DNA from: Candidatus Diapherotrites archaeon | GTDB taxonomy: Archaea; Iainarchaeota; Iainarchaeia; Iainarchaeales; 1-14-0-10-31-34 | DNA: 64,000 nucleotides | Assembly: GCA_040755695.1 (NCBI GenBank) | Contig: JBFMAK010000002.1 | Location: forward strand, 1-64,000 | Reading direction: 5' to 3' | Shown here: piece by piece, positions 3,706 through 26,047 of the stretch | How positions within the stretch are numbered: position 1 is the first letter of the stretch | Layout of the letters: each line of letters begins with the position of its first letter | Notes under the pieces: generated by a model | The model's input: the letters and a program-made list of their open reading frames with translations, nothing else | What the model was told of the DNA's origin: nothing | Databases searched by the model: none | Program-made: the position numbers and the translations under genes

Positions 3706-4227
3706 ATGACTGAATTAGAGCTTGAAAGGACTTTCTTGGCAAAAAAAATTCCTGAAGATTTGCGGAAATGCGAAAGCATTGAATTAATTGACATTTATAT
3801 ACCAAGAGAAGCCGAACACCCTACATTAAGAATCAGAAAAAAAGGTGAAAAGAGAGAAATAACAAAAAAAGAGCCAACCCATAAAGAAGACAGCTCAAAA
3901 CAGGCAGAACACACTATTCATTTAACTGAAAAAGAATATGATGCTCTAACAAAAATAAAAGGAAAAAAGTTATGGAAGAAAAGATACAAATACCCTTACA
4001 ATGGAAGAACAGCAGAAATAGACGTATTCCAAGGGCCACTCAAAGGGCTTGTACTCATAGACTTCGAATTCAATACAGAGGGAGAAAAAAAGGATTTTAG
4101 AATGCCTGAATTCTGCCTTGCTGACGTAACGCAAGAGAAGTTTGCTGCAGGAGGCATGCTCTGCGGGAAAAAATATTCTGACATAAAAAAAGAACTTGAA
4201 AAATACGGATACAAAAAAATAAAATAG
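3706..4227 (+). CDS. CYTH-domain (triphosphate tunnel) protein
   Basis: The 173-residue protein starts with ELELER, the ExExK-like signature of the CYTH/TTM superfamily (class IV adenylate cyclases, thiamine triphosphatases and inorganic triphosphatases). Further basic and acidic strands typical of the tunnel fold follow: LRIRKKG, KKRYKY and AEIDVF near 110-116, and a late LIDFEF. The family hydrolyses or cyclises triphosphates with divalent metal. Which substrate applies here cannot be told. Because the signature lies at residues 3-8, the start at 3706 is firm even though it is one base past the tRNA-Leu 3' end and has no Shine-Dalgarno site. Confidence 0.8.
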   Translation: MTELELERTFLAKKIPEDLRKCESIELIDIYIPREAEHPTLRIRKKGEKREITKKEPTHKEDSSKQAEHTIHLTEKEYDALTKIKGKKLWKKRYKYPYNGRTAEIDVFQGPLKGLVLIDFEFNTEGEKKDFRMPEFCLADVTQEKFAAGGMLCGKKYSDIKKELEKYGYKKIK

Positions 4228-13177: not shown

Positions 13178-14068
13178 ATGACTCTAATTCCATTGGATTA
13201 CACTTTACTTCACTTAATCCAATTATTCTACAACCAGATTCTTGATTACCTAATGATTGCCATAACAGAGCTCGGAAGTCCTTTATTCTGGTTCCTTGTG
13301 GCTTCAATGCTTTACTGGAAAGGAAAGGAAAAAGACTCTTTCTATCTTACAACCCTGCTTGTATTCACAGGAATAATTATCATTGGATTAAAAGACTTCT
13401 TCATGAGGGCAAGGCCCTCAAGCAACGAATTTAGGGTTCTAGTCAAAAGCAGTGAATACTCCTTTCCAAGCGGCCACGCAACAACCATTTCTTCAGTTGC
13501 AGCATTCTATGAAAGGAAAGTGAAATCAAAACTAACAATAATGTTAATCCTTGCAGTGCTAATAGTGTCATACAGCAGGCTTTACGTGGGAGCGCACTTC
13601 CCTTCAGACGTAATAGTTGGGATAGCCTTAGGCCTCCTGATAGGCAAGGCGTGCAAGAACTTATTCAAAAGATTTGATAAAGCCCAATTCAAGCTCACAA
13701 GCCTTGAAGAAGAAATAATAGTAATAATACTTATAGCAATAGCATTAATCCTGCTGTTGCTTGCAAGCCCCATACCTGAAGCAGCCTTATTCATAGGGTA
13801 CTACGCAGGATTCTTTGTACTAAAAGAAACAAGGCATACAACAACACAATTAACAACACAAAACATGTTTATAAAACAATTCATTGGATTCATGGTGATG
13901 GCAGCAATAGGAATTCCAGCCCTCCTCATCCCGGCCATAGACATACCAATAAAATTCATATTATTATTCATGATAGGGCTGTGGGTCACACTCTTAATGC
14001 CCTTGCTCTACGAAAAAATACTCAAGACAGAACTATTGCAATCACTCCAAAAAGAAGGCAACCTTTAA
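13178..14068 (+). CDS. PAP2-family membrane phosphatase
   Basis: The 296-residue protein has the three-part phosphatidate phosphatase signature: KDFFMRARPSS (K..RP) near 71-81, FPSGHAT near 95-101, and SRLYVGAHFPSD near 131-142. The active-site histidines lie in the second and third parts. About eight hydrophobic segments surround them, with extra C-terminal helices beyond the core. It likely removes phosphate from lipid phosphates such as polyprenyl pyrophosphate. That fits a cell that also carries cis-prenyltransferase (42690), though the genes are far apart. Confidence 0.88.
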   Translation: MTLIPLDYTLLHLIQLFYNQILDYLMIAITELGSPLFWFLVASMLYWKGKEKDSFYLTTLLVFTGIIIIGLKDFFMRARPSSNEFRVLVKSSEYSFPSGHATTISSVAAFYERKVKSKLTIMLILAVLIVSYSRLYVGAHFPSDVIVGIALGLLIGKACKNLFKRFDKAQFKLTSLEEEIIVIILIAIALILLLLASPIPEAALFIGYYAGFFVLKETRHTTTQLTTQNMFIKQFIGFMVMAAIGIPALLIPAIDIPIKFILLFMIGLWVTLLMPLLYEKILKTELLQSLQKEGNL

Positions 14069-14140
14069 AACAATTTCACACCAAAATTAATTCTAACAGC
14101 CTTTTAGGAAAAGGCTGGCGAAAACTGACAGTGGCAGTTT

Positions 14141-14336
14141 CCCGCCTTTGCATAGTAGTAGTGCGTCCGGCTGTAGTTCTGCCCTTTTTTCTTTTAGGAA
14201 AAGAAAAAAGTGTAAGTTGCCCAAAAAAGAAAAAAGGGTTTGTCAACACCTTTGAAGCGGTGTTACGACGCAATTATTATTGGTGCTGAAGCAAGCAGTT
14301 ACCGGAAGGTCCCCGGTGCAAATCCGGGAGGCGGGA
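14141..14336 (+). tRNA. tRNA-Tyr (GTA) with 124-nt intron, atypical D- and T-loops
   Basis: The acceptor CCCGCCT pairs with AGGCGGG, discriminator A; C1:G72 is the archaeal tyrosine identity pair. The anticodon stem TCCGG/CCGGA has anticodon GTA at 14173-14175, and the intron spans 14177-14300. The T-stem is CCCGG/CCGGG. Two things are odd. The T-loop is TGCAAAT, so the near-invariant T55 is G. The D-loop (TAGTAGTAG) lacks the GG that normally contacts it. It may be a functional but unusual tRNA or a degenerating copy. Its 3' end is the parent of the repeats R1-R7 downstream. Confidence 0.8.
14182..14238 (+). repeat. Purine/pyrimidine double-hairpin repeat, copy B (in tRNA-Tyr intron)
   Basis: CCCTTTTTTCTTTT, a loop, AAAAGAAAAAAG, then the core GTGTAAGTTGCCCA (14210-14223, identical to copy A) and AAAAAGAAAAAAGGG, which can also pair with the 5' pyrimidine run. 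Confidence 0.75.
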
Positions 14337-14415
14337 TTACTACATAACTTTTGTTATCAAAAGATTAAAAAAACATAAAAACACAAAATAAGAAAGAAAA
14401 TCAAAAACTGTAATG

Positions 14416-15294
14416 TCAAGTGTTTAACTTCCCATTAAAGAATAATTGTGCAGGATAGTTTTTAATGCCTCTGTGGTAGCATTTGTTGTTGTACCATTTT
14501 ACCCATTCTTTGATTTTTCCTGCCAGCCAGTGAGGAAATTTCAGTAAGAGGTTAACAAACTCTTCTGCAAGATTTCTGATGGCTCGCTCTACTTTACCTT
14601 TGTCTTGCGGATAGTAAGGGTGAGCAAACAAAGCGTTTATTTTTTGTTGTGCGAGCAAGTCAACCCACTCTTGCTTGAAGGGATTGTTGTCAGTAAGAAC
14701 ATTTCTGGGGTGATACTCTTGCATGAATGGTTTTATGGCTGCGAATATCTCTTGTATGTTTGGGCAGTGATCAAACTGTTCTGCTGTAATAATATATCTG
14801 CTGTAGTCATCAACGCAAAGCAGAAAATACCATTTCTTTCCTTGTACAGTAAAAGGCCCTTTCAAGTCTAACTGCCAGAGTTCATTAGGCTCTTTAGCTC
14901 TAAAAAACTTCCATGCCTTCTGCTCTCTATTAAATCCGTTAACGTGATGCTTGCATAAAACCTTGTTAATGGATTGTCTTGAAAGATTTACTCCTTGAGG
15001 ACATTCTTTCATTTCTTTCTGCATGAATGCTGGTAAGGCTACAAGGCCTTGCTGTATTCTGGCTGTGCCCCACTTAAACATTACACGCATGAATAATATG
15101 GCTAGCTCTACTTCAAAGGCTATCTTTCTTTTTTTGTTTCTTGGCTTATCCTTCAAGCTTGTTCTGGCATCCCGTTTACCCCAGTAACGAATAGTCTTTC
15201 TGTTAACACCAAAAACCTTTGCTACAAGGCAAACAGGATTACCTCGCCGTAAGCATTTTATTATGGAATGTCGTTCTTCTTGTGTTAACCGCAT
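14416..15294 (-). CDS. Transposase with HTH and rve integrase core (IS481-like)
   Basis: The 292-residue protein has an N-terminal helix-turn-helix (about 1-40, VAKVFGVNRKTIRYWGKRD), a second helical region, and an rve core from about 130. Catalytic residues are visible as DLKGPF (first D), LTDNN (second D) and KGKVERAI (E), followed by the usual WYNN...HRG tail. It catalyses cut-and-paste or copy-type transposition of its own element. The frame is intact, so the element may be active. It differs from the tyrosine recombinases that would be expected to use tRNA sites. Confidence 0.88.
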   Translation of the reverse strand: MRLTQEERHSIIKCLRRGNPVCLVAKVFGVNRKTIRYWGKRDARTSLKDKPRNKKRKIAFEVELAILFMRVMFKWGTARIQQGLVALPAFMQKEMKECPQGVNLSRQSINKVLCKHHVNGFNREQKAWKFFRAKEPNELWQLDLKGPFTVQGKKWYFLLCVDDYSRYIITAEQFDHCPNIQEIFAAIKPFMQEYHPRNVLTDNNPFKQEWVDLLAQQKINALFAHPYYPQDKGKVERAIRNLAEEFVNLLLKFPHWLAGKIKEWVKWYNNKCYHRGIKNYPAQLFFNGKLNT

Positions 15295-15305
15295 ATATAA
15301 TCCAA

Positions 15306-15350
15306 AGTAGTGGGGGACTCCAATCCCCCACCTTCTGGATGCCCACTACT
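15306..15350 (+). promoter_or_regulatory. Nested hairpin upstream of the transposase
   Basis: An outer 9-bp inverted repeat AGTAGTGGG/CCCACTACT encloses an inner GGGGA/TCCCC hairpin. It lies just 5' of the transposase start on the minus strand and could act in the leader RNA or as an internal transposase binding site. Confidence 0.55.
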
Positions 15351-15471
15351 CCCTCCTTTGAATATACAAACAATATCCAACAAAAAGAAGCTTTCGGTCA
15401 GTGGGAAGTTAAAAGGTTTACTTTACAGCAACAAAACATTTAAAAAGAACAATATTCTATTATAGTATGAC

Positions 15472-17466
15472 ATGAAATTTAAAACAGCTTTAATTTTTTT
15501 TGGAGTCCTTTTAATATTAGGATTTATTAGCGCTACAGCGCCAACAGTGCTTGTCATCCAGCCAAACGGAAGCCAATACATTAAAGGAAGCTATACAATT
15601 GATTTTAATGTAACAGATAATGATTCAAATTCTATTGCTGACTCAAACCTGATGGCACGCATTTATTACAGTTCTACGCAGGGGGCTTTTACAACTTTAA
15701 TCACAGACTTAAACCTAATGAATACAAGCGTTTGCGGAGACCAAAATTTTGTAACAACAAATAATTGCACTTACAGCTGGAACACAGCAGTGGTCACAGA
15801 CGGAAACTATTTTATTGATATAAATGTTGTGGACAGCCTGCCAAACGGTACTTTCAGGGATTCAGGCTCAGATTCAAGCAATACAAGCTTTATGATAGAT
15901 AATACTGCTCCGACAACTTCATGGGATGGCAATACTACTTGGCAGAAAATTGATGCCAACATTCACTTGACCTGCGTTGACGCTTCAAACAACTGCCCTA
16001 CAACAAAATACAGGGTTGACACTGACTCATCAAGCACAGTTTCCTATGGCTCTTGGACTACATATGACACAAACATTTTCATTAATTCTGACGGAAACTG
16101 GGCTTTAGACTTCAATTCCACTGACGCAGCGCTAAATATTGGAGACGTAAACACTTTTTATGTGTTAATTGACCAGACTGCGCCAGTAGTAACAATATCC
16201 AATCCAGCAGACGGTTCAAGCCAGACATCAACTGGAGTAACATTAGTTTACAGCGCAACAAACACAGGAGACATAAACAAATATTACGTTCAAGTAGATT
16301 CAAATGGATGGGTAGACAACAGTACAAATCTTTCTTATGACTTTAATAATTTAACGACCGCAAGCCATACATTTTATGTTATTGCACAAACAAAATCAGA
16401 CGTAAACAGTTCAACTGCTTCAGTAACAATATCTGTAACCTCCCCGCCAGCGCCTAATACAGGAGGCCTAAATTACTGTCGTGCCCAATACATTGACGGC
16501 CATTATGGAGACATTTGCAATGATGATGAAGAATGTACAGGACAATGGCTCACTGCACTGGACTCTGATAGATGCTGTTCAGTTGAATGCACTCCTGCAG
16601 TTCAGGAAGTTTGCGGCAATGGAATTTGCACTGGAGACGAAAATGCAAGCAATTGCCCAGCAGACTGCCAAACAGAAACAAAAGAAACTGTATTAGAAAA
16701 AGTAATTTCATACAAACCCACTTCAGAGGAAATAAGGAATAAATTAACTGAAGTTGGAGCTTCAGAGAATGCAATAGAAAAAGCTTCTCAGGCAGTAGGA
16801 AAAACAACAGTAAGCAGAACAATTACAGTGGAAAAAATAACAGACACTATTACAGGAGAAATAAGTTATCAAACTACAATGACAATCAACATAAACAATC
16901 CAGGAAAAAAGAAAACAAACATAAAAATAATTGAATTCATTCCAAAATCAGTGGCATTAAACGCTTCACAAATAAAAAGCGATTTTGAATTCACTATATT
17001 AAAAGAAGACCCAGTAATTGAATTTTCAATTGACGAAGTTAACCCAAACCAGACAAAAAACATAACCTATACTATAGACGACGAGGTAAGCAATCAGGCA
17101 ATAAATGAAATGACTGCCCCAATAGTAGCAGAATTCGCAGAAGAAGAACCTCTAATAGACTTGTGCAAAGGAAAAAATTGTGATGACAATAATCCTTGCA
17201 CCCAAGATTCCTGTGATTCTACAACAGGAGAATGCTCTAACACAAACTTAACTGAAGGAACAAGCTGCGGAACAACCAAAGAATGCAAAAATGGGAAATG
17301 TATCACAAAAACAGTTACAGATGATGATGGCAAAGAACCACAAAAACCAGAAGAAACAGACTTTACTCCGTTCATTATTCTAATTATTTTAATAATTATA
17401 GCAGGAGCAGCATACTATTATTTTAAAATACAAAAACCAAAAAACGACTTAACCTACAAAAAATAA
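15472..17466 (+). CDS. Large surface protein with Ig-like and cysteine-rich domains
   Basis: The 664-residue protein has a signal peptide (1-22), Ig-like strand regions (about 25-330), a cysteine-rich repeat with CGNGICTGDENASNC (about 383-400), a CARDB-like or helical middle (about 410-560), a second cysteine cluster CKGKNCDDNNPCTQDSC (about 565-610), and a C-terminal helix (about 631-651) with a lysine tail. It should be anchored and exposed on the cell surface. It lies inside the tRNA-Tyr repeat array, so it may be exchanged between strains like adhesins in other mobile loci (inference). Confidence 0.8.
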   Translation: MKFKTALIFFGVLLILGFISATAPTVLVIQPNGSQYIKGSYTIDFNVTDNDSNSIADSNLMARIYYSSTQGAFTTLITDLNLMNTSVCGDQNFVTTNNCTYSWNTAVVTDGNYFIDINVVDSLPNGTFRDSGSDSSNTSFMIDNTAPTTSWDGNTTWQKIDANIHLTCVDASNNCPTTKYRVDTDSSSTVSYGSWTTYDTNIFINSDGNWALDFNSTDAALNIGDVNTFYVLIDQTAPVVTISNPADGSSQTSTGVTLVYSATNTGDINKYYVQVDSNGWVDNSTNLSYDFNNLTTASHTFYVIAQTKSDVNSSTASVTISVTSPPAPNTGGLNYCRAQYIDGHYGDICNDDEECTGQWLTALDSDRCCSVECTPAVQEVCGNGICTGDENASNCPADCQTETKETVLEKVISYKPTSEEIRNKLTEVGASENAIEKASQAVGKTTVSRTITVEKITDTITGEISYQTTMTININNPGKKKTNIKIIEFIPKSVALNASQIKSDFEFTILKEDPVIEFSIDEVNPNQTKNITYTIDDEVSNQAINEMTAPIVAEFAEEEPLIDLCKGKNCDDNNPCTQDSCDSTTGECSNTNLTEGTSCGTTKECKNGKCITKTVTDDDGKEPQKPEETDFTPFIILIILIIIAGAAYYYFKIQKPKNDLTYKK

Positions 17467-17482
17467 TTCTAATTTTGTAAAT

Positions 17483-17530
17483 TCCGGCAGGACTTGCACC
17501 GGTAGAGCAGTGTTGGGAGGCGGGATTTAT
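17483..17530 (+). repeat. tRNA-Tyr-derived site R1
   Basis: Long-form repeat: CCGGCAGGACTTGCACC, a short loop, then GTGTTGGGAGGCGGGATTT. The last part copies the tRNA-Tyr 3' acceptor strand (14326-14338). CAC/GTG can pair as a small hairpin. It lies 17 bp after the surface protein gene and before Fic. Confidence 0.8.
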
Positions 17531-17581
17531 TACTCAATTGTTGTTATTACTCATGCCTTTTTAAACATTTCTGAGTAATAA
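17527..17581 (+). promoter_or_regulatory. Direct and inverted repeats around the Fic promoter
   Basis: TTATTACTCA occurs at 17527-17536 and 17544-17553, 17 bp apart, and inverted (TGAGTAATAA) at 17572-17581. They flank the TTTTTAAAC promoter box. R3 is followed by a similar pair, TTATTACACA/CTATTACACA at 20599 and 20616, also 17 bp apart, before the second Fic gene. Confidence 0.6.
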
Positions 17582-17587
17582 CTAATT

Positions 17588-18520
17588 ATGGCTTATTTGG
17601 CAAAACAAAAGAAAGGCAAACAAGAATACTATTACCTGGTTGAAAACATTCAAATAGCCACTGGCAAGAGAAAGCAGCTTAGAAAATATCTGGGGAATGA
17701 AAAACCTTCTGAAACAAAGCTTCAAATACAGGTGGCAAAATTTGAAGAAGAAGTTGAAAAAGAAAAAATTAAATTGCATGGCTTTCACTATTTAACCAAA
17801 GATGAAATAACAGAGATCGACGAAATCAACAAAGAATTTTGGAAAAGATACAACAAACAAAATAAGACAGTGCAGGAACAATTTGACCAGAACTTTGTAA
17901 TGGCTTTTGTTTTCAACTCAAATTCAATTGAAGGCAGCACTTTAACACCAAAAGAAGTTGAACTGCTGTTAAGAGAAAATATTGCGCCGAATAAGCCGCT
18001 TGAGGATGTGCTTGAGGCAAAGAATGCAGAAAAAACGCTAAACTTTGTGAAAGAACACAAAGAAGAATTAACAGAAGAATTTTTGCTGAACGTACATGAA
18101 ATATATTTTAAAGAAACCAAACCTTACGTTGCAGGCAAATACAAAACAGCACAAAATAGGATAACTGGCTCTGCATTTGAGACCACCCCACCAAAACTTG
18201 TGCAAACAGACATAAAACTGTATTTCAAAGAATATGAAAAACTCAAAAAAGAATTACACCCACTGGAGCTTGCCGCTTGGGCGCACTGGAAGCTTGTAAG
18301 AATTCACCCATTCCAAGATGGCAATGGAAGAACAGCAAGAATAATAATGAATTTTGTTTTACACAAAAATGGCTATGCAATGATTGACATAAAAACAAAA
18401 GAAAAACAACAATACTTCAAAGCATTAGAAAAATGCCATTACAACAACAATGCAAGGGCGTTGGCAATCAGGCTTGTGAGAAGATTCAAAAAACAATACC
18501 AAAATGCGTTGAAAGGATAG
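17588..18520 (+). CDS. Class II Fic-family protein
   Basis: The 310-residue protein has the complete Fic motif HPFQDGNGRTAR (near 240), which AMP-ylates or otherwise modifies target proteins with a nucleotide cofactor. An inhibitory-helix motif SNSIEG, matching (S/T)xxxE(G/N), lies near residue 113. It therefore carries its own alpha-inh and needs no separate antitoxin. The N-terminal 60 residues are basic and strand-rich (YYYLVENIQ, KQLRKYLG) and are shared with the Fic protein at 20695. The promoter box near 17558 suggests a leaderless mRNA. The next gene starts 7 bp after it. Confidence 0.9.
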   Translation: MAYLAKQKKGKQEYYYLVENIQIATGKRKQLRKYLGNEKPSETKLQIQVAKFEEEVEKEKIKLHGFHYLTKDEITEIDEINKEFWKRYNKQNKTVQEQFDQNFVMAFVFNSNSIEGSTLTPKEVELLLRENIAPNKPLEDVLEAKNAEKTLNFVKEHKEELTEEFLLNVHEIYFKETKPYVAGKYKTAQNRITGSAFETTPPKLVQTDIKLYFKEYEKLKKELHPLELAAWAHWKLVRIHPFQDGNGRTARIIMNFVLHKNGYAMIDIKTKEKQQYFKALEKCHYNNNARALAIRLVRRFKKQYQNALKG

Positions 18521-18527
18521 GGATTGT

Positions 18528-19574
18528 ATGAAGCAAATTATTTCAACATTGGAATTAAAGGAAATTGATATTAAAAAATTAGAACCATTTATTGAGCGCT
18601 GGAAACAGATTAAAGACCTGCCTTGTGACAATATTGAATTTCATGAAACTGACAAAAACACTATTTTAGTTAAATTATATTACCCTTTAGATATTTTTGA
18701 CCGTTCAGTTTCACAGTTTGTAACAGTGCTGTTTGGGGAATTGTCATTTGTTAAGAACTTTGGAAAAGTAAAATTCTTAGAACTACAATTGCCAAATGAA
18801 GTTTACAAATGGTTTACAGGCCCAAAATTTGGAACTGAAGAAATAAAGAAGCGATTTGACGTTTCCAATTACCCGCTTTTAATGGCTATAATTAAACCTT
18901 CACTGGGAAAAACTCTAACCACAGAAATATTGGAAACAAAAATAAAATCTGTTTTATCAGGCGGATTCAATGCAGTAAAAGATGACGAAATGCAAGGGAA
19001 CTTAAACTATGCGCCATTGAAACACAGAATTAAACTTGCAAAGAAATATCAAAAATACATTCCAGCCATAAACTTGGATAAGGCAGAAGATTTTAGGAAA
19101 GTAGTATCTGATGAAAAAATAGGGGCGGTTCTAATCAATGCTTCTACTCTTGGATTTCCCTTGCTTCATGAAATCAAGAAAATTTCAAAAGTTCCCATAA
19201 TCTCACATCCTGCATTGCAGGGAGTTTATGGATATAGTTTTTCTCACAAAGTTTTTGCAATGCTGCACAGGCTGTTTGGCTGCGATGGTTACATATGCCC
19301 TATCGCAGACGTTGATTATTTTAATGTAAGCAAACAAGAAGAAAAAGAAATAATCATGGAATTTACAAAAGACTTGCCTATCAAAAAAACCATGCCATTA
19401 CTTGCTGGTGGGGCAAGAATCAATAGCTTGAAGAATATTATGGCGCCATATGAAAAAATGAGAATTCCTTATGGTTTGGTATTTGGCTATCAAATCTTTG
19501 CAGACGATAAGAAGTCTTCACAAATGTGTAAAAATGTGGTTGAAAAAGTAAGAAGAATTAAGCAAAATCTATAG
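18528..19574 (+). CDS. RuBisCO-like protein (form IV type)
   Basis: The 348-residue protein aligns with RuBisCO large subunits but is about 80 residues shorter. Seen in order: an N-terminal domain remnant, GPKFG (98-102), KPSLG (123-127, for KPKLG), GGFNAVKDDE with the carbamylation lysine at 151 followed by DDE, SHPALQG (near 226) at the place of HRAMH, and LLAGGARI. The lysines equivalent to K177 and the loop-6 K334 are missing, so carboxylation is unlikely. Relatives enolise other sugar-phosphate-like compounds. It shares an operon with Fic between R1 and R2. No pathway partners are seen. Confidence 0.8.
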   Translation: MKQIISTLELKEIDIKKLEPFIERWKQIKDLPCDNIEFHETDKNTILVKLYYPLDIFDRSVSQFVTVLFGELSFVKNFGKVKFLELQLPNEVYKWFTGPKFGTEEIKKRFDVSNYPLLMAIIKPSLGKTLTTEILETKIKSVLSGGFNAVKDDEMQGNLNYAPLKHRIKLAKKYQKYIPAINLDKAEDFRKVVSDEKIGAVLINASTLGFPLLHEIKKISKVPIISHPALQGVYGYSFSHKVFAMLHRLFGCDGYICPIADVDYFNVSKQEEKEIIMEFTKDLPIKKTMPLLAGGARINSLKNIMAPYEKMRIPYGLVFGYQIFADDKKSSQMCKNVVEKVRRIKQNL

Positions 19575-19610
19575 CTGCCAGCGTGGGAAAACAATAAAAG
19601 AATCGCTGAA

Positions 19611-19657
19611 TCCGGCGGGAGTTGCACCAGTAGATCGGTGTTGGGAGGCGGGACTTA
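19611..19657 (+). repeat. tRNA-Tyr-derived site R2
   Basis: Best example of the long form: TCCGGCGGGAG, TTGCACCAGTAGATCGGTG, then TTGGGAGGCGGGACTT. CACC/GGTG forms a clean 4-bp stem with loop AGTAGATC. GGCGGGA occurs twice in direct orientation 33 bp apart. Confidence 0.82.
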
Positions 19658-19724
19658 CCTATTAGAGCAACTCTCGCCTTTGAAACGCAAGGTTTATAAA
19701 AAGCACCAGGTATTACTTAATGAT

Positions 19725-20024
19725 ATGGAGCACGTGAGCATTAAATTGGATGCTGCCTTTGCAAAGCAGATTGAGAGAGACATGCGAGAATTCAATTACA
19801 CTACCAAAACAGAATTCATTAGAGAGTCCATTAGAGATAAATTAAAACAGCTGGCAGCAGAAAGAGAGAAAAAGAAAGCGTGGGAAGCACTATTTGCTGT
19901 AAGAGGAATACTCAAGGGAAAGGTGCCGATGCGAACCAGAGAGGAAGAGCAACAATTTGAGAAAAAGATTGACAGAGAAATAAGAGAACACTATGAAAAA
20001 AAATTTGGAATCAATCTAAAGTAA
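19725..20024 (+). CDS. Ribbon-helix-helix antitoxin-like protein
   Basis: From the ATG at 19725 the protein has 99 residues: MEHVSIKLDAAFAKQIERDM, then a helix pair (TKTEFIRESIRDKLKQL) typical of CopG/ParD-like RHH DNA-binding proteins, and a charged C-terminal tail. The AAGGTTTATAAAAAG promoter (19689-19703) gives a nearly leaderless mRNA. The gene converges on a PIN toxin with 14 bp of overlap at the 3' ends. Earlier in-frame starts fall in R2 and are rejected. Confidence 0.8.
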   Translation: MEHVSIKLDAAFAKQIERDMREFNYTTKTEFIRESIRDKLKQLAAEREKKKAWEALFAVRGILKGKVPMRTREEEQQFEKKIDREIREHYEKKFGINLK

Positions 20025-20439
20025 TGTCCTCTGGCATTGTCACCTCAACAATTGAAGCCAGCAAATCAAAGAAATGCTTGTCCCGCGCAACCAGTACAGC
20101 CTTATTGTCCCTCGCTATAATTGTATGAAGAACATCCTTGAAAGGAAGTTGCCTGTTTCTCTTTTGCCATTCTCTTCTTGCTTCAGAAACCTGCTCAGCG
20201 CTAGCGGAAACTTTCCTGATAATGCCACTAAAAGAGGAAAAAATCTCTTTTACTCGCTCCTTTGAAAGCCTACGCTCCAACTCAAGAACAACAGTATCGG
20301 AAACAAGAATCTCAATGTCTTTTTCCCTGCACTGTCGCAGGAACTGAAAAGCGAATTCGCCAAGAGGCTTAATGCCGTCTTTTCTGTCTTCAAAGTAATC
20401 ACGCCAGATTGCAGTGTCAAGATAAAATTTTTGCTGCAT
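20011..20439 (-). CDS. PIN-domain toxin
   Basis: The 142-residue protein begins with YLDTAIWRDYFEDR (first metal-binding aspartate), has VSDTVVLELERR (acidic residues of helix 2), LPFKDVLHTIIARD and a late LVARDKHFF. This is the VapC-like acidic quartet for Mg-dependent RNA cleavage. It is convergent with the RHH gene, an unusual layout since VapB/VapC pairs are normally tandem. Its ATG is about 25 bp from an ATTTAAAT box on the minus strand. Confidence 0.85.
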   Translation of the reverse strand: MQQKFYLDTAIWRDYFEDRKDGIKPLGEFAFQFLRQCREKDIEILVSDTVVLELERRLSKERVKEIFSSFSGIIRKVSASAEQVSEARREWQKRNRQLPFKDVLHTIIARDNKAVLVARDKHFFDLLASIVEVTMPEDITLD

Positions 20440-20464
20440 AGTAACAACTATTGCTTAACATTAT

Positions 20465-20511
20465 TTAAATTTGCCACAGCAAATTTAAGTATTTAAAGCA
20501 GAGCTTTAAAT
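20465..20511 (+). repeat. Two adjacent AT-rich hairpins
   Basis: TTAAATTTGC-CACA-GCAAATTTAA (20465-20488) and ATTTAAAGC-AGA-GCTTTAAAT (20491-20511) are perfect inverted repeats upstream of the PIN promoter. Both are built around GC-A-rich loop-GC centres, like those at 37769-37809 and in the tRNA-Asp intron. Confidence 0.65.
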
Positions 20512-20556
20512 TATTTAAAACAAATTAACCAGCAGCAGGTAAGCAATGGCTGAAAT

Positions 20557-20608
20557 TGTCGGGACTCGCACTCACAGCTGGGGGTTGAGAGGCGGGATTT
20601 ATTACACA
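20557..20608 (+). repeat. tRNA-Tyr-derived site R3
   Basis: Long form: GTCGGGACTCGCACTCACAG, then GGGGGTTGAGAGGCGGGATT. ACTC can pair with GGGT where R2 has CACC/GGTG, so pairing is kept with different bases. It precedes the second Fic gene. Confidence 0.78.
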
Positions 20609-20694
20609 TTTTAGTCTATTACACATAGCTTTTTTTGCCAATGTAGCCAAAATTTTAGATATATTTAAAAAATGTAGCCGTCTATTATATCAAT

Positions 20695-21648
20695 ATGTTT
20701 ATCGAAATAAAAAAAGTCGGAAACAAGAAGAAATATTATCTAGTTCATTCATTTAGAGATGGAAAGAAAGTTAGAAAAATTCGAAGATATCTGGGGAGCA
20801 ATCTAAGCAAAGAAAAACTTGTACAAATGAGGGAAGTTGCAGAAAAACAAATTTTACAAAGAGTAAAAATATTTAAGAAAATAAATGACCCGCTGCTTGA
20901 AGTTTTAACAGAAGAAGAAATAAAAAAAATAAAGGAACTTGAAACAAAAAAGGCCTTTAAAATATTTCATTTATCTGAAGAACAATGGCAAAGATTCTCA
21001 GAAATATTCACCTACAATACTAACGCAATTGAAGGAAGCGAACTAACCCAAAAAGAGGTAAACCAAATATTAGAAAAAGACAAATGGCCTGAAGATAAAA
21101 CTAAAGAAGACATTTCAGAAGCATATGGCGTTACAGAAGCAATCAAATTTATAAGAAAAACAAAAGAACACATTTCGATTGAACTAATCAAACAAATCCA
21201 CGAAATTGTTTTCAGAAATAGTAAGCCATTTGCCGGCAAAATAAGACAAAAAGGAATAGAAGTTGTTGTAAGAGACGGTCTTGGGAATATTGTTCATCAA
21301 GGAGCGCCATCAGAAAAAACTGCTGAATTACTAAAAGAACTATCACAATGGTACAACAAATACAAAAACAAATACCCCCCCATTTTACTCGCAACAGTTG
21401 TACACAACCAGTTTGAAAACATTCACCCTTTTCAGGACGGAAATGGGAGAGTTGGAAGAATACTAATGAACAATATACTAATAAAGCACGGATTGCCTCC
21501 AGTAAACATTGATTTCAAAAACAGGAAAAAATACTATGAATCATTGCAAGAATATGAAAACAACCATGACATCAGACCAACAATCGAATTACTGCTTGAT
21601 GAGTACAAAAAGCTAAGAAAGCAATTAAAGGCGACTACAAATAAATAA
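20695..21648 (+). CDS. Class II Fic-family protein (second copy)
   Basis: The 317-residue protein has HPFQDGNGRVGR near 243 and the inhibitory motif TNAIEG near 107, so it is a self-inhibited Fic enzyme. Its N-terminus (KKYYLVHSFRDGKKVRKIRRYLG) resembles that of the Fic protein at 17588, and both follow a long-form repeat with 17-bp-spaced direct repeats. They are diverged paralogs within the same array. The TATATTTAAAA box near 20658 suggests a leaderless mRNA. Confidence 0.9.
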   Translation: MFIEIKKVGNKKKYYLVHSFRDGKKVRKIRRYLGSNLSKEKLVQMREVAEKQILQRVKIFKKINDPLLEVLTEEEIKKIKELETKKAFKIFHLSEEQWQRFSEIFTYNTNAIEGSELTQKEVNQILEKDKWPEDKTKEDISEAYGVTEAIKFIRKTKEHISIELIKQIHEIVFRNSKPFAGKIRQKGIEVVVRDGLGNIVHQGAPSEKTAELLKELSQWYNKYKNKYPPILLATVVHNQFENIHPFQDGNGRVGRILMNNILIKHGLPPVNIDFKNRKKYYESLQEYENNHDIRPTIELLLDEYKKLRKQLKATTNK

Positions 21649-21663
21649 AATGTAGCCGCCCAA

Positions 21664-21712
21664 ATTCGGCGGGATTTGCACCAGCAGATCGGTGTTGGGA
21701 GGGGGGATATTT
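21664..21712 (+). repeat. tRNA-Tyr-derived site R4
   Basis: TTCGGCGGGATTTGCACC, loop AGCAGATC, GGTGTTGGGAGGGGGGAT. Only one base of the acceptor copy differs (GGCGGGA to GGGGGGA). It begins 15 bp after the Fic stop. Confidence 0.8.
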
Positions 21713-21746
21713 TACCTTTTTTTATGAGCAAGAAATAGCAACGTCT

Positions 21747-22466
21747 TTATCTTTTTCCTCTTTTTGGTTTTCCTGCAATTCTTTCATCAAAAGGCACTTC
21801 AGTAATAGCATGCCTTTTTTCTGCGGAAAAATAAACAATCAAACTATAGTTTATCTGGTCTTTAATCAGTTGAGGCAAATCAGCTTTTCTATCCCACTTA
21901 GTCAAAGCAACAAAAAAAGCAAGGTCAGCAGTTCCCTGAATATCCCCAAAATCAGGCCTGTTCCTAAACCTTCTTACCGCTGCATCAATTATCCCAACAT
22001 GCTCTTCATACAATTTATTTCTTTCGGCTTCACCTAAAAGATTCAGCACAGGCAAATCTTCAACATACTTCGATTCTCCAAAAACTTTCCCCAGCCTGGA
22101 TGCTGCAGCCTTCAAAGCCCTCTCACGCCTCTGCTCAGGAGTCAAAGAAGCTATAGCCTTCAAACCTTTCAAAGCCCTCTCACGCCTCTGCTCAGGAGTC
22201 AAAGAAGCTTCTCTCTTCAAAGCCCTCTCACTTCTATCATAAGATGATAAAACAGCCCTTCTTTTTTCCCACAACAACGCTTTTATTCTTGCAGGAGTTA
22301 CAGCTTCTTTTTTTGGAAAAACCTGGCTTAAATAAACACTAACCGTTGATCGCGGAATGCCATACTTTTCGCTAATTTCTGTAACAATCTGCTGTCTTGG
22401 AGTTCCCTGCTTTAGCCCCTCAGCCATCCTCAAGAAATAAACAGGCAAAAACCTCTTTCTCGCCAA
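21747..22466 (-). CDS. HTH protein with a sigma-region-2-like segment
   Basis: The 239-residue protein starts at a TTG 8 nt after GGGAG. An N-terminal HTH is visible (QIVTEISEKYGIPRSTVSVYLSQVF, about 27-51). Then comes a basic linker with a duplicated SLTPEQRRERALK repeat (about 88-125). The C-terminal part (about 150-215) reads YEEHVGIIDAAVRRF...DFGDIQGTADLAFFVALTKWD, which resembles sigma-70 region 2. Archaea do not use sigma factors, so a DNA- or RNA-polymerase-binding role is speculative. It is the only gene between R4 and R5 and lies on the opposite strand to most array genes. Confidence 0.6.
   Translation of the reverse strand: MARKRFLPVYFLRMAEGLKQGTPRQQIVTEISEKYGIPRSTVSVYLSQVFPKKEAVTPARIKALLWEKRRAVLSSYDRSERALKREASLTPEQRRERALKGLKAIASLTPEQRRERALKAAASRLGKVFGESKYVEDLPVLNLLGEAERNKLYEEHVGIIDAAVRRFRNRPDFGDIQGTADLAFFVALTKWDRKADLPQLIKDQINYSLIVYFSAEKRHAITEVPFDERIAGKPKRGKR
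22111..22230 (-). repeat. Internal coding repeat in the sigma-like gene
   Basis: A 42-bp unit occurs at 22111-22152 and 22168-22209 without change, with a 15-bp third start at 22216-22230. Unit starts are 57 and 48 bp apart, multiples of three, so the repeat stays in frame and encodes SLTPEQRRERALK twice. Confidence 0.85.
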
Positions 22467-22548
22467 AAAACATCTCCCAAATAAACTAATTCTAATAAAT
22501 AATGAACATTAACACCTATAAAATAATAACCATAAACACAGCCATTTT

Positions 22549-22594
22549 CGTCGGGGAGTTGCACTCACAGATGGAGGTTGGGAGGCGGGATTGA
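22549..22594 (+). repeat. tRNA-Tyr-derived site R5
   Basis: CGTCGGGGAGTTGCACTC, ACAGATG, GAGGTTGGGAGGCGGGATT. CTC/GAG replaces the CACC/GGTG stem of R2. It lies upstream of an antitoxin/RelE operon. Confidence 0.8.
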
Positions 22595-22627
22595 CCTCTG
22601 GAAAGACCGCCGACTAGAAAGGTTTAT

Positions 22628-22646
22628 AAATTAGTTTAACTAATTT
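22628..22646 (+). promoter_or_regulatory. Palindromic operator at antitoxin/RelE promoter
   Basis: A perfect 19-bp palindrome (AAATTAGTT-T-AACTAATTT) directly follows and overlaps the GGTTTATAAA promoter box, 18 bp before the ATG. Autoregulation by the antitoxin is the likely use. Confidence 0.68.
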
Positions 22647-22664
22647 TATATTAGGTGAAATTAT

Positions 22665-22928
22665 ATGCAGAAAACTGTGACCATGAATGTTAAAGTAAAA
22701 GATTATACAAACAGAGTAATTGGTGTTGTTAAAGAGAAGTATGGCTTGAAAGACAAGGGCGAGGCCCTTGACAAGTTTGCCGAGCTTTGCGGGGAGGAAT
22801 TTGTCGAGCCTGAAGTAAAGGAAGACGTCATTAGAGAAGTCATTGAATCTTGTGACAGGCACATCAAAAAATACGGCTTCAGAAGCAGAAGTGTTAAAGA
22901 TTTGCGGAAGATTATTGAGGCGAAGTAA
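22665..22928 (+). CDS. Antitoxin-like protein of a RelE pair
   Basis: The 87-residue protein begins with a strand VTMNVKVKDYTNRVIGVVKEKYG resembling a short RHH or DUF2683-like DNA-binding part, followed by charged helices. It ends one base before the GTG start of a RelE-type toxin. Promoter and palindrome lie just upstream. Confidence 0.72.
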   Translation: MQKTVTMNVKVKDYTNRVIGVVKEKYGLKDKGEALDKFAELCGEEFVEPEVKEDVIREVIESCDRHIKKYGFRSRSVKDLRKIIEAK

Positions 22929-23210
22929 GTGCCATTCGAATACGACTTCAGCGATGGGTTAGAGGAAACTCTTGAAAAGCTGTTCAAGAAAGACAAAAAC
23001 CTCTACGACTCTTTGATGAAAAAAATTGAAGAAGTTGTCTCAAGAGATGAAACCACAATAGGATTCTACAAAAATCTGCGATACGATTTGAAGGAATTCA
23101 AAAGAGTTCACGTTGCGAAAAGCTTTGTGCTCTTCTTCAAAGTATTCAAAGAAAAAAATTTCATTATTTTTGATAAATTTGGGCACCACGATGATATGTA
23201 TAGGCGATAA
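22929..23210 (+). CDS. RelE/YafQ-like toxin
   Basis: The 93-residue protein starts at a GTG that directly abuts the antitoxin stop. It has the compact RelE/ParE layout: an N-terminal helix pair (EETLEKLFKKD...LMKKIEEVV), central strands with LRYDLKEFKRVHVAKSFVLFF, and a final FDKFGHHDDMYR, where the HHDD-Y tail matches RelE/YafQ RNases. It probably cleaves mRNA on the ribosome and is neutralised by the product of 22665. Confidence 0.82.
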   Translation: MPFEYDFSDGLEETLEKLFKKDKNLYDSLMKKIEEVVSRDETTIGFYKNLRYDLKEFKRVHVAKSFVLFFKVFKEKNFIIFDKFGHHDDMYRR

Positions 23211-23248
23211 AATGAACCACAAACCACACACCAAAAACTACTTTCTGG

Positions 23249-23274
23249 ACAGCACATCCGGGAGGCGGGACTTT
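23249..23274 (+). repeat. tRNA-Tyr-derived site R6
   Basis: This short form is closest to the tRNA itself. GCACATCCGGGAGGCGGGA (23252-23270) matches tRNA-Tyr 14318-14336 at 18 of 19 positions, covering part of the T-loop, the T-stem 3' strand and the acceptor. Confidence 0.85.
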
Positions 23275-23339
23275 TTCTCAATAAAAAGGCACGCCGGACG
23301 GCAATAGGTTTATAATCTGTTTACATTATAATATATTGT

Positions 23340-23876
23340 ATGACAAAGTTGCTTGTGATTAGTGACAGCAGCTCTTTGATCATTGGAACAAAGGCCGGAT
23401 TATTGACTGCACTATGTGAAGAATTTGAGGTTGAAATTCCTGAGAAAGTGTTTGAAGAAACCGTTGCAGCAGGAAAAGAGTTGCAAAAAATAGATGCATT
23501 GAAAATAGAGGAAGCAATCGAAGAAAACAAAATAATGGTTAAAAAAGCAACGCCTATTAAAGACAGCAAGGTAATGAAATGGTTCAAGGAACTTAATCTG
23601 GATGAAGGAGAAAGTCAGGCAATACATCTTTACATTCAAACAAATGCAAAACTTTTGCTGGTCGACGACAAGCAAGCAATAAATGCAGCAAAATTGCTTG
23701 AAATAAACTGGGCAACTATTCCAGACATTATTGTAGGGTTTGCTGAAAGGGCAAAAATCCCCAAAGAAAATGCTTTAGAAGCACTAAAAATAGCACAGCA
23801 GGAAGGGAGATATAAGATTGATTTTATTCTTAAAGCATTTAATAAAATCGAAAAAATTAAAGGAGGAAAAAAATGA
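23340..23876 (+). CDS. DUF3368 PIN-like toxin
   Basis: The 178-residue protein has VISDSSSLI (first aspartate) near residue 7, a central LNLDEGESQAIHLY (acidic pair) and LLLVDDKQAINAA, the pattern of DUF3368 PIN-like RNases. The C-terminus is a helical tail. The AGGTTTATAAT promoter lies 27 bp upstream. The next gene, a UPF0175 protein, overlaps by 4 bp, the usual partner arrangement. Confidence 0.85.
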   Translation: MTKLLVISDSSSLIIGTKAGLLTALCEEFEVEIPEKVFEETVAAGKELQKIDALKIEEAIEENKIMVKKATPIKDSKVMKWFKELNLDEGESQAIHLYIQTNAKLLLVDDKQAINAAKLLEINWATIPDIIVGFAERAKIPKENALEALKIAQQEGRYKIDFILKAFNKIEKIKGGKK

Positions 23877-24187
23877 AAACTGAGTTAGTTTCCGCAAGAT
23901 TTGAAAAGACAGACACTGCACTAATAGAAGAAGTTGCCAAAGAAGAAAAAACAGACAAAACTACGGCCTTGAAAAGGATATTTTCACTGGGGGCAAAACA
24001 GTACAAGCTAGAAAAAGCCATAGAGCAATACCAAAAAGGACAAATAAGCATAGGCAAAGCAGCAGAAAAAGCAGGAGTCAGCTTGTGGGAAATAATGGAC
24101 GAACTAAAAGAAAGAAACATAGTTAACCCGTTAGGCGAAGAGGAATTCAAAGAAGGCCTCAAAAACCTTGAAAAGGTTTGGAAATGA
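23873..24187 (+). CDS. UPF0175-type antitoxin
   Basis: The 104-residue protein has an N-terminal segment that looks RHH-like (LVSARFEKTDTALIEEVAKE) and a C-terminal UPF0175 HTH (GQISIGKAAEKAGVSLWEIM). These proteins neutralise DUF3368 toxins. An AGGAGG-type site just before the ATG (23864-23869) lies inside the toxin gene, and a 4-bp ATGA overlap follows with the next gene. Confidence 0.85.
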   Translation: MKTELVSARFEKTDTALIEEVAKEEKTDKTTALKRIFSLGAKQYKLEKAIEQYQKGQISIGKAAEKAGVSLWEIMDELKERNIVNPLGEEEFKEGLKNLEKVWK

Positions 24188-24486
24188 GCAAAAATGCAAT
24201 TGGTTGGACTCACATAATATTGGAAGCATACTGCGCTAGGAAATGGAGCGACAAAAAAGACAAATACTGGTATGAAGTTGTCGATTGGAAAAAATTCAAA
24301 ACCAAAAAAGTTCCAAATCCCCGCTATGACCCAAAATACAAACTGCCAAAAAAGCCGTATTACTGTATAGGAATCCCCCAATATATTTGTCTGGAAAAGA
24401 ACTGCCCACATCTTGCATACACAGATGCCTTAAAGAGAGATTACCTGTTCTTAAATAAAAAATACAAAAAGAAGGAAAAGAAATGA
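24184..24486 (+). CDS. Small cysteine/lysine-rich protein
   Basis: The 100-residue product is basic, with MSKNAIGWTHIILEAYCARK at the start and cysteines in YYCIGIPQYICLEKNCPH that might bind metal. The ATG at 24184 overlaps the UPF0175 stop, making it the third gene of the operon. I do not recognise it. Confidence 0.6.
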   Translation: MSKNAIGWTHIILEAYCARKWSDKKDKYWYEVVDWKKFKTKKVPNPRYDPKYKLPKKPYYCIGIPQYICLEKNCPHLAYTDALKRDYLFLNKKYKKKEKK

Positions 24487-24602
24487 GAAACCGCAAACCT
24501 CTTACTCCCAACAACATGCCTCCAATTGACAAATCCAGAAGACGGGATATTACTATTTCTGTGGTAGAAGAAGTATTCTGCGCTTACAGAGTGAAAAGAT
24601 GA
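24483..24602 (+). CDS. Possible 39-residue protein spanning repeat R7
   Basis: ATGA overlap with the preceding stop begins a frame encoding a basic N-terminal half (MRNRKPLTPNNMPPIDKSRR) and a hydrophobic end. The R7 site forms its middle, so the frame may be a chance extension of the operon through an attachment site. Confidence 0.35.
   Translation: MRNRKPLTPNNMPPIDKSRRRDITISVVEEVFCAYRVKR
24529..24553 (+). repeat. tRNA-Tyr-derived site R7
   Basis: AAATCCAGAAGACGGGAT (24531-24548) matches tRNA-Tyr 14320-14337 at 15 of 18 positions. It is the last and most worn copy seen, and the likely far boundary of the array. Confidence 0.6.
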
Positions 24603-24646
24603 GGGCTAGCTAAATGATTATATATGACTATTCTTATAGTTTTATA

Positions 24647-24959
24647 ATGAAACGCACTATTGTTCAGCGTATTAAAGCAGCCTGGTTTAGTACTCCTTTA
24701 GAAGTTGCTAAAGGAGCTATTAGAGGTCAAGTGATAAGAGTTACAAACCATCATAGATATGTTGCACTAAAAAAAAAATAGACCAAATCGTAAACTGCTT
24801 GTAAAACAAAAAAATGAATTAGTTAAAAAAGTAAAAGAGACCCTTAAAGGCAAGGGGATTGGGGTAGTAAAAGTTTTTGGAAGAGTTAAAACGTCTACAA
24901 ACGGCAAACAATCTAACCTCCCTGTGCAAATCATTAAGGCAGAATTTTTTTATCTTTAG
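24647..24959 (+). pseudogene. Small gene split by a frameshift at an A10 run
   Basis: The first frame encodes 44 residues (MKRTIVQRIKAAWFSTPLEV..HHRYVALKKK) and stops at 24779-24781, right after ten A residues (24769-24778). Removing one A continues the frame as NRPNRKLLVKQKN...KGIGVVKVFGRVKT...IIKAEFFYL to 24959, giving about 103 basic residues. The join looks natural, so this is a recent frameshift, a sequencing error in the homopolymer, or slippage-dependent expression. A TATATGAC-like promoter precedes it. Family unknown. Confidence 0.55.
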
Positions 24960-26047
24960 CGCTTTGTTTTTGAGGGAGGCTCTGGCTCGAAAGATTTTTC
25001 AGCTTTCAGGTCTATTGCCAGTTCTACAAGAGAAATAGTAAGCCTTGCAATCTTCTTCAGGTGATGCAGTAATTCTTTTTCTTCGTCAGAGCATTTCTCG
25101 TAAAGCTTTCTTGCATTCTTCTCAATTTCATCTTCTCTCTCAAAAATCTTTACTGCCTTTTTAAGCTCGAAATTGCAAAACAGGCTATAATAGGATTCAA
25201 AGTGGGAGTTGATTTCACTTAACAATTTAAGGCAGTTCTTCTTGTACTTGTGCTTGTCCTGGGTTACATGCTGTGCAATTATCTTGTATTCGTCTCCTAC
25301 AAGCTCAAGCAGAAAAATAGTGGAATAAATTGTGGGCGTCTTCTTGTATTCCTCATAGCCTTTAACGTTGAACACCCTGAAGCAGTAGTCTTGAAACCTG
25401 TCAATGTTTGTGTCAATCATGTGAATTGTTCTAAGAGTTGAAAAATCGTTTTTTTCTATTGCTTCTAATACATCCTTCCCCATTGAAATCAAGAGCATGA
25501 AAATCCTCTTCAATGCATTGTCGAATTCCTTGTAGGAAATTTCCCCCAACTGTTTTACTACCACATAACCCTGTTTTTGCTCAATTATTTCCACCCCAAT
25601 GAACCTATTCACTAAAGCCTGAATTGAATCAAGCGCAGTAATATTAGGCACTCTCTTAGGCACAAGGCCCCTATAAAACCAGTCGGTTGTATCATAAAGG
25701 TTAAGGCTTTCATTAGAGGGGCTTGGGAAAAGCCTTTCATAGTACAATTCATTCAATTTCTCGTTATTGTTTTCAGTGCTGTCAAAATTGATTTTTATTT
25801 CATCATAGCCTGCCCTGTACACAGCTGAAATATAACGCCATAAAAGCTTGTTGGGAAGGCCTGTAATGTCAATTTCAGCCCTGGTGTTGCCGTTGTTATT
25901 GACCTTGTCAGTGTTTATTACAAGAGAATTTCCTTTTTCAACTAAATCAATTTCAGAGCCAGGGCTCAGGCCCTGCTGCCTGGCCCACCTAATAGGAATA
26001 GTAACAGTAAAAGTGTTGTGGCCCTGTCTTATGACCTTTCTCTTCAT
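24956..26047 (-). CDS. AbrB/SpoVT-PhoU-type regulator
   Basis: Starting at MKRKVIRQGHNT the product is 363 residues. The first 45 form a SpoVT/AbrB DNA-binding swapped hairpin (TFTVTIPIRWARQQGLSPGSEIDL). The rest is helical with PhoU-like repeats (about 150-345, including ALKRIFMLLISMGKDVLEAI). Archaeal AbrB-PhoU proteins are linked to phosphate uptake control, though no pst genes are here. An upstream ATG at 26068 gives a poorer N-terminus. It marks the return to normal gene order after the array. Confidence 0.82.
   Translation of the reverse strand: MKRKVIRQGHNTFTVTIPIRWARQQGLSPGSEIDLVEKGNSLVINTDKVNNNGNTRAEIDITGLPNKLLWRYISAVYRAGYDEIKINFDSTENNNEKLNELYYERLFPSPSNESLNLYDTTDWFYRGLVPKRVPNITALDSIQALVNRFIGVEIIEQKQGYVVVKQLGEISYKEFDNALKRIFMLLISMGKDVLEAIEKNDFSTLRTIHMIDTNIDRFQDYCFRVFNVKGYEEYKKTPTIYSTIFLLELVGDEYKIIAQHVTQDKHKYKKNCLKLLSEINSHFESYYSLFCNFELKKAVKIFEREDEIEKNARKLYEKCSDEEKELLHHLKKIARLTISLVELAIDLKAEKSFEPEPPSKTKR

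Follow-up and report, generated by a model that had tools for sequence, protein, structure and literature searches.

In this study, we found that the gene at positions 18528..19574 on the + strand of the window, the 64,000-nucleotide stretch of a Candidatus Diapherotrites archaeon contig analysed here, encodes a RuBisCO-like protein (RLP) of 348 aa that is carried in a tandem array of gene units bounded by copies of a tRNA-Tyr 3' end. The protein is probably form-IV-like cassette cargo, namely a metal-dependent enzyme of the enolase/isomerase type that does not carboxylate RuBP and is not an antitoxin of the Fic protein encoded next to it.

The RLP gene is an open reading frame whose ATG lies 7 nt behind the stop codon of the Fic gene on the same + strand. 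The RLP is a remote member of the RuBisCO superfamily. It matched the Pfam model RuBisCO_large (PF00016) with 30.3 bits (cut-off, 30.1) over residues 108-172 only, that is, over part of the domain, and in phmmer and hmmsearch comparisons the family match spanned both domains, to MtnW and other RLP structures. PDB matches support this membership: the best had E=1.5e-19, whereas 4nas and 3nwr matched only weakly. The earlier note had described a RuBisCO-like protein of 348 residues situated 7 nt behind a Fic gene, and the open reading frame and the family matches confirm this description. Among NCBIfam models the best was MtnW (NF007095), with 109 bits (cut-off, 409); a second MtnW model, TIGR03332, gave 82 bits (cut-off, 514), the form III model TIGR03326 gave 74 bits (cut-off, 497), and NF042437, which covers OiaX and the four-carbon-acid-linked RLPs, gave 64 bits (cut-off, 700) with the HRN and SGQ motifs absent. 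The RLP is thus not assigned to any of these families. For comparison, established RLPs reach 150-244 bits at best against the identical model set, and three of established type gave 196-244 bits with the NCBIfam model that fits each best. An AlphaFold model predicted from a two-sequence alignment had a pLDDT of 41 and was too poor to use. Truncation as a cause of the 348-aa length was rejected, because a relative found independently (L032) has 350 aa.

Residue equivalences were taken from a MAFFT alignment with form I, form III, MtnW, OiaX and the four-carbon-acid-linked, YjbQ-linked and transketolase-linked RLPs; because the other groups share no more than about 30% identity with the RLP, this is a low-identity alignment, and the equivalences in the first 60 residues, in the T65/W66 region and after beta-5 are less secure. 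On the + strand, the KDDE motif K151-E154 (18978..18989) retains the equivalents of K201, D203 and E204, which we take to be the carbamate/metal triad with K201 as the carbamylation Lys. Also retained are K123 (18894..18896), equivalent to K175, and H227 (19206..19208), equivalent to H294. The RLP and its L032 relative, otherwise about 60-61% identical, have the same residues at KDDE and at the K175 and H294 equivalents; conservation within a clade known from two members is weak evidence. The residue set of catalytic RuBisCO (forms I-III) is changed at K177, R295, H327, K334, S379 and GG403-404. The K177 equivalent, two residues beyond K123, is Ser125; the R295 equivalent, next after H227, is Pro in the window RLP and Val in the relative; H327 is lost; there is no Lys at the loop-6 (K334) position; the S379 equivalent is Ala or Thr; and the GG403-404 pair is GY or GS in the clade. 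R295, H327 and S379 are presumably P2-phosphate ligands, and GG403-404 presumably part of the P1 site (GGG). At position 123, where RuBisCO has Asn and MtnW has Lys, the RLP has Glu (E71, 18738..18740), as do the YjbQ-linked RLPs. The GGAR stretch G294-R297 (19407..19418) keeps the beta-7 glycines and contains a new Arg, which both proteins of the clade have. Like the transketolase-linked RLPs, the RLP has a shortened C terminus. The alignment bears out the earlier observation that KDDE is kept while the K177 and loop-6 Lys equivalents are lost; the retained K175 equivalent had not been mentioned there. As a RuBisCO homologue without the residues needed for carboxylation, the RLP falls into form IV in the broad sense. 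Since the second KPK Lys, the P2 ligands, the loop-6 Lys and the P1 GG pair are gone, it should not carboxylate RuBP, and since phosphate ligands are lost at both ends, a bisphosphate substrate such as RuBP is disfavoured.

When 84,980 species genomes were scanned with exact 8-residue patterns, a search that detects close relatives only, one close relative came up, L032 (350 aa, about 60-61% identical over the full length). It is encoded on a 9-kb contig binned as a Patescibacteria MAG, so its bacterial assignment depends on that binning. More sensitive searching of 87 genomes of the archaeon's own phylum gave no further close relative, nor did two overlapping draws of 380 and 381 genomes (about 760 in all) from the phylum and class to which the Patescibacteria MAG belongs. 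The viral contigs and phages searched had none either; the plasmid search gave distant RLPs and no close relatives. Between the window gene and the L032 gene, dN was 0.28 and dS was saturated at 3.0, which indicates purifying selection on both genes. Maximum-likelihood trees put the two proteins in a clade of their own (100/100) with a stem of 3.0-4.2 changes per site; it fell outside all forms and RLP groups sampled, a sample that did not extend to several published form IV subgroups (DeepYkrW, GOS, AMC and others). Placement of the RLP inside form III alone was rejected (AU p=0.005); joining it to forms I and III as a whole, as their sister, was not firmly rejected (AU p=0.076). The earlier note had made its reading depend on the protein not belonging to catalytic form III with all active-site residues, and both the tree test and the residue losses speak against such a placement. 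Judged by its sequence, the RLP is a deeply divergent form-IV-like RuBisCO homologue, far from the groups sampled.

The mobile interval around the RLP gene is real. At its head is a tRNA-Tyr(GTA) gene (14140..14337, + strand) with a 124-nt intron in the anticodon loop, which was missed by ARAGORN in its default run and found once introns were allowed. Further copies of the 3' end of this tRNA, GGGAGGCGGGA, lie on that strand at 17515, 19643, 20587, 21697, 22580 and 23260, each identical to it or differing at one position. When up to two mismatches were allowed, the 13-mer TTGGGAGGCGGGA had 7 matches on one strand against 1.04 expected, a count reached in 0 of 100 shuffles. Five of the copies have a common 47-nt boundary, all on the + strand: 17483..17529, which ends in ...TTGGGAGGCGGGATT, 19611..19657, which forms the right end of the RLP unit, 20555..20601, 21665..21711 and 22548..22594. 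A sixth, short copy, CCGGGAGGCGGGA, lies at 23258..23270 (+ strand), and a degraded copy was recognised by eye near 24530-24554. Positions 14140-24554 therefore form a tandem array of about seven units behind the tRNA-Tyr gene, each bounded by a tRNA 3'-end copy.

The first unit contains an IS element (14408-15428) with 27-nt terminal inverted repeats and an rve/IS630-HTH transposase gene (14416-15294, - strand), together with a surface protein gene. The second, of about 2.1 kb (17526..19653, + strand), contains the genes for Fic (310 aa, 17588..18520, + strand) and the RLP. In the third, a gene for a small protein that looks by eye like a ribbon-helix-helix (RHH) antitoxin and has no Pfam match (19725..20024, + strand) accompanies a PIN-domain gene (20011..20439, - strand) whose Pfam match is just below the cut-off; this gene pair recurs in the array of another genome. 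A second Fic gene (20695..21648, + strand) is alone in the fourth unit, and after it come an HTH-like gene, a two-gene unit encoding a small protein and a RelE/YhaV-like toxin (22665..23210, + strand; weak Pfam match) and another PIN-like gene. These contents and the tRNA-Tyr 3'-end repeats support the earlier view that the RLP gene sits in a mobile array rich in toxin and Fic genes. The array is not an integron cassette array by its sites, since positions 14000-25000 contain no attC-like site. Folded as plain DNA, the repeats did no better than shuffled sequences and showed no attC-type fold, an Rfam search of 14000-24700 gave no match, and no integrase was noticed in the array; four tyrosine recombinases are encoded elsewhere in the genome, none of them tied to the array. 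The RLP unit may have joined the array behind the tRNA-Tyr gene by site-specific recombination at the repeats.

Similar arrays are found in other genomes of the phylum. The 13-mer GGGAGGCGGGAYT occurred 57 times in 28 of 83 genomes, compared with 3 occurrences of the reversed pattern. Since a lone copy would be expected to belong to the tRNA itself, the case for arrays is built on clusters: contig C6 of G074 has eight copies within 18 kb, and several are present in G002, G003, G021, G022, G070, G072 and G073. In G072 and G074, ARAGORN calls a tRNA-Tyr at the array head. The cassette families of the window recur in these arrays, with names assigned partly by eye: Fic with a similar N-terminal region, the RHH-PIN pair, RelE-like and PIN. 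A search of the open-licence literature gave no recognised description of tRNA-anchored toxin cassette arrays in DPANN archaea. For the study of mobile gene capture in archaea with small genomes, the tRNA-Tyr arrays offer a well-defined starting point.

The L032 gene has a different setting. An attC-like site (1296-1387) follows the RLP gene and two more lie at 1845-1899 and 3973-4053; these three sites, against 0.58 expected, mark the contig as an integron-type cassette array. For two of them folding was much stronger than in shuffled sequences (z -3.8 and -3.0), and inverted repeats occur in pairs at the cassette ends. The contig, on which no integrase was noticed, stops short of the left end of the RLP cassette. 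The neighbouring genes are of NUDIX and AbiEii type, with no Fic gene. A TTTATATA box in 130-161, about 27 nt upstream of the RLP start, looks like an archaeal TATA box or promoter, which is suggestive only. Since the L032 gene lies next to attC-like sites and the window unit is bounded by tRNA 3'-end repeats, two unrelated cassette systems in two domains carry one rare RLP, which is more surprising than the divergence of the protein. Archaeal integrons and cassette exchange between the domains have been described (Ghaly et al. 2022, PMC9668308), so cross-domain cassette traffic is plausible, and this RLP family seems to travel between archaea and bacteria on mobile DNA. If so, its carriage as cassette cargo in two domains would show how RuBisCO-fold enzymes spread. 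A bolder idea, which we offer tentatively and consider somewhat doubtful, is that this archaeal phylum has its own integron-like system, in which small units accumulate in tandem behind tRNA-Tyr through site-specific recombination at 3'-end copies, and that it trades cargo, including a new class of RuBisCO-fold enzyme, with bacterial integrons.

The 7-nt gap, the shared strand and the common array unit raise the question of whether the RLP and Fic form one module, in which the RLP restrains Fic or Fic AMPylates and thereby switches the RLP. The earlier note had described the protein as paired with Fic. Fic carries HPFQDGNGR at 240 and the N-terminal inhibitory motif SNSIEG at 111, in agreement with the class II pattern (HPFx[DN]GNGR and N-terminal [ST]xxxE[GN]), and class II Fic proteins are self-inhibited (PMC5651007). 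With this inhibitory motif of its own, Fic does not need the RLP as an antitoxin. Both Fic proteins of the window match the PADLOC candidate defence family PDC-S04. In other arrays the Fic genes are usually alone or with a different neighbour; in L097 (3101-4658, reverse-strand coordinates), an array Fic gene is followed at 4 nt by a gene for a histidine-phosphatase-like protein, a possible parallel to Fic and RLP. This enzyme-like partner speaks for a module, whereas most array Fic genes have no such partner and the L032 RLP has no Fic neighbour. The pairing is thus not conserved over the two RLP loci, a functional partnership is not supported, and we regard a Fic-RLP module as quite unlikely.

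Other explanations concern the RLP itself. That it is a methionine- or isoprenoid-salvage RLP, either an MtnW-like enolase or a YjbQ-linked RLP, which diverged fast in a reduced genome, would explain why MtnW is its best model and why it shares Glu at position 123 with the YjbQ-linked RLPs, which are present in the phylum (L003 and L004). However, the scores of 109 and 92 bits fall far short of the cut-off (409) and are below the range of established RLPs, the tree places it outside the MtnW and YjbQ-linked groups, MtnW has Lys at position 123, and no salvage partner adjoins the RLP gene in the window or at the L032 locus. We consider this explanation unlikely, if a little less so than the Fic-RLP module. 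The absence of nucleotide-salvage partners, which the earlier note had pointed out, holds for the neighbourhood but not for the genome: a canonical form III RuBisCO is encoded separately on contig C1 (L042, 592 bits to TIGR03326) and one IF-2B-family isomerase on C4. The form III enzyme covers RuBisCO chemistry in the window genome. Both RLP-carrying genomes encode an ordinary form III RuBisCO, which the RLP therefore supplements rather than replaces. This coexistence and the loss of many substrate ligands would also suit a catalytically dead structural or regulatory relative which, for example, inhibits the host form III enzyme by mixed assembly. The metal/carbamate triad and the K175 and H294 equivalents are strictly kept, however, although a dead protein could do without them, and this makes such a role improbable. 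The small number of relatives found might suggest a decaying gene or a chance open reading frame without function. About 61% full-length identity across two domains, with dN of 0.28 and saturated dS, leaves this hardly any probability; the selection signal and the equal length of the L032 relative rule out a chance open reading frame or a pseudogene. Apart from these matters, two genomes of the phylum encode form III-like proteins (L015 and L018) in which the carbamylation Lys K201 is lost (Val or Gly in the alignment). L003 and L004 are full-length RLPs, and the L004 gene is adjoined by YjbQ-like and IspD/IspF-like genes (read by eye), which hints at an isoprenoid-linked archaeal RLP.

We therefore return to the RLP as metal-dependent cassette cargo. 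It would fold as a shortened two-domain RuBisCO in which carbamylated K151, with D153 and E154, may hold Mg2+. K123 or E71 may act as the acid/base, so that a small substrate would be enolised, isomerised or cleaved; metal-dependent proton abstraction, as in other RLPs, fits the kept triad and K123. The RLP gene would be an accessory metabolic gene, probably co-transcribed with that of the self-inhibited Fic. Since the RLP lies outside form III, has lost the catalytic residues and is encoded in a mobile array rich in toxin and Fic genes, a role other than CO2 fixation is the better reading. The role unrelated to carbon fixation suggested in the earlier note is supported by the residue losses, the tree and the array context. 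Few RLP reactions are known so far. A distant clade that keeps the metal triad and has lost most phosphate ligands points to a reaction not yet assigned. RuBisCO itself is believed to have arisen from RLPs (PMC12663927).

Features in common with integron arrays, including archaeal ones, are the attC-like sites next to the L032 gene, the tandem one- or two-gene units and the cross-domain traffic, whereas the window array has no attC-like site and is divided by tRNA-Tyr 3'-end copies. Among the enzymes, form III RuBisCO (L042 of the same genome and L045 of G087) belongs to the same superfamily and occurs in the same host genomes as the RLPs, but has K177, R295, the loop-6 Lys and GGG, all four of which the window RLP lacks. 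MtnW/YkrW, the form IV 2,3-diketo-5-methylthiopentyl-1-phosphate enolase (PDB 3fk4, 2oek and 2zvi), resembles the RLP in its RuBisCO fold family, in the kept KDDE and K175, in the change of R295 to Pro and in the missing K177, H327 and loop-6 Lys. The window RLP differs from it in an identity of about 30% or less over the aligned part, in being about 60 residues shorter, in Glu at position 123, in the loss of the P1 GGG and in having no methionine-salvage neighbours. The transketolase-linked short RLPs (L046, L055 and L056; 371-381 aa) share the short C terminus and gave the best full-length tblastn coverage among plasmid RLPs; however, they have KDDH or KEDD instead of KDDE and Asn at position 123, and form a separate supported clade. 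The YjbQ-linked RLPs of the Chlorobaculum tepidum type (PDB 1ykw; L003, L004 and L049) also have Glu at position 123 with KDDE and K175 kept, but are longer (432-437 aa), carry RG at 403-404 where the clade of the window RLP has GY or GS, and have isoprenoid or YjbQ neighbours.
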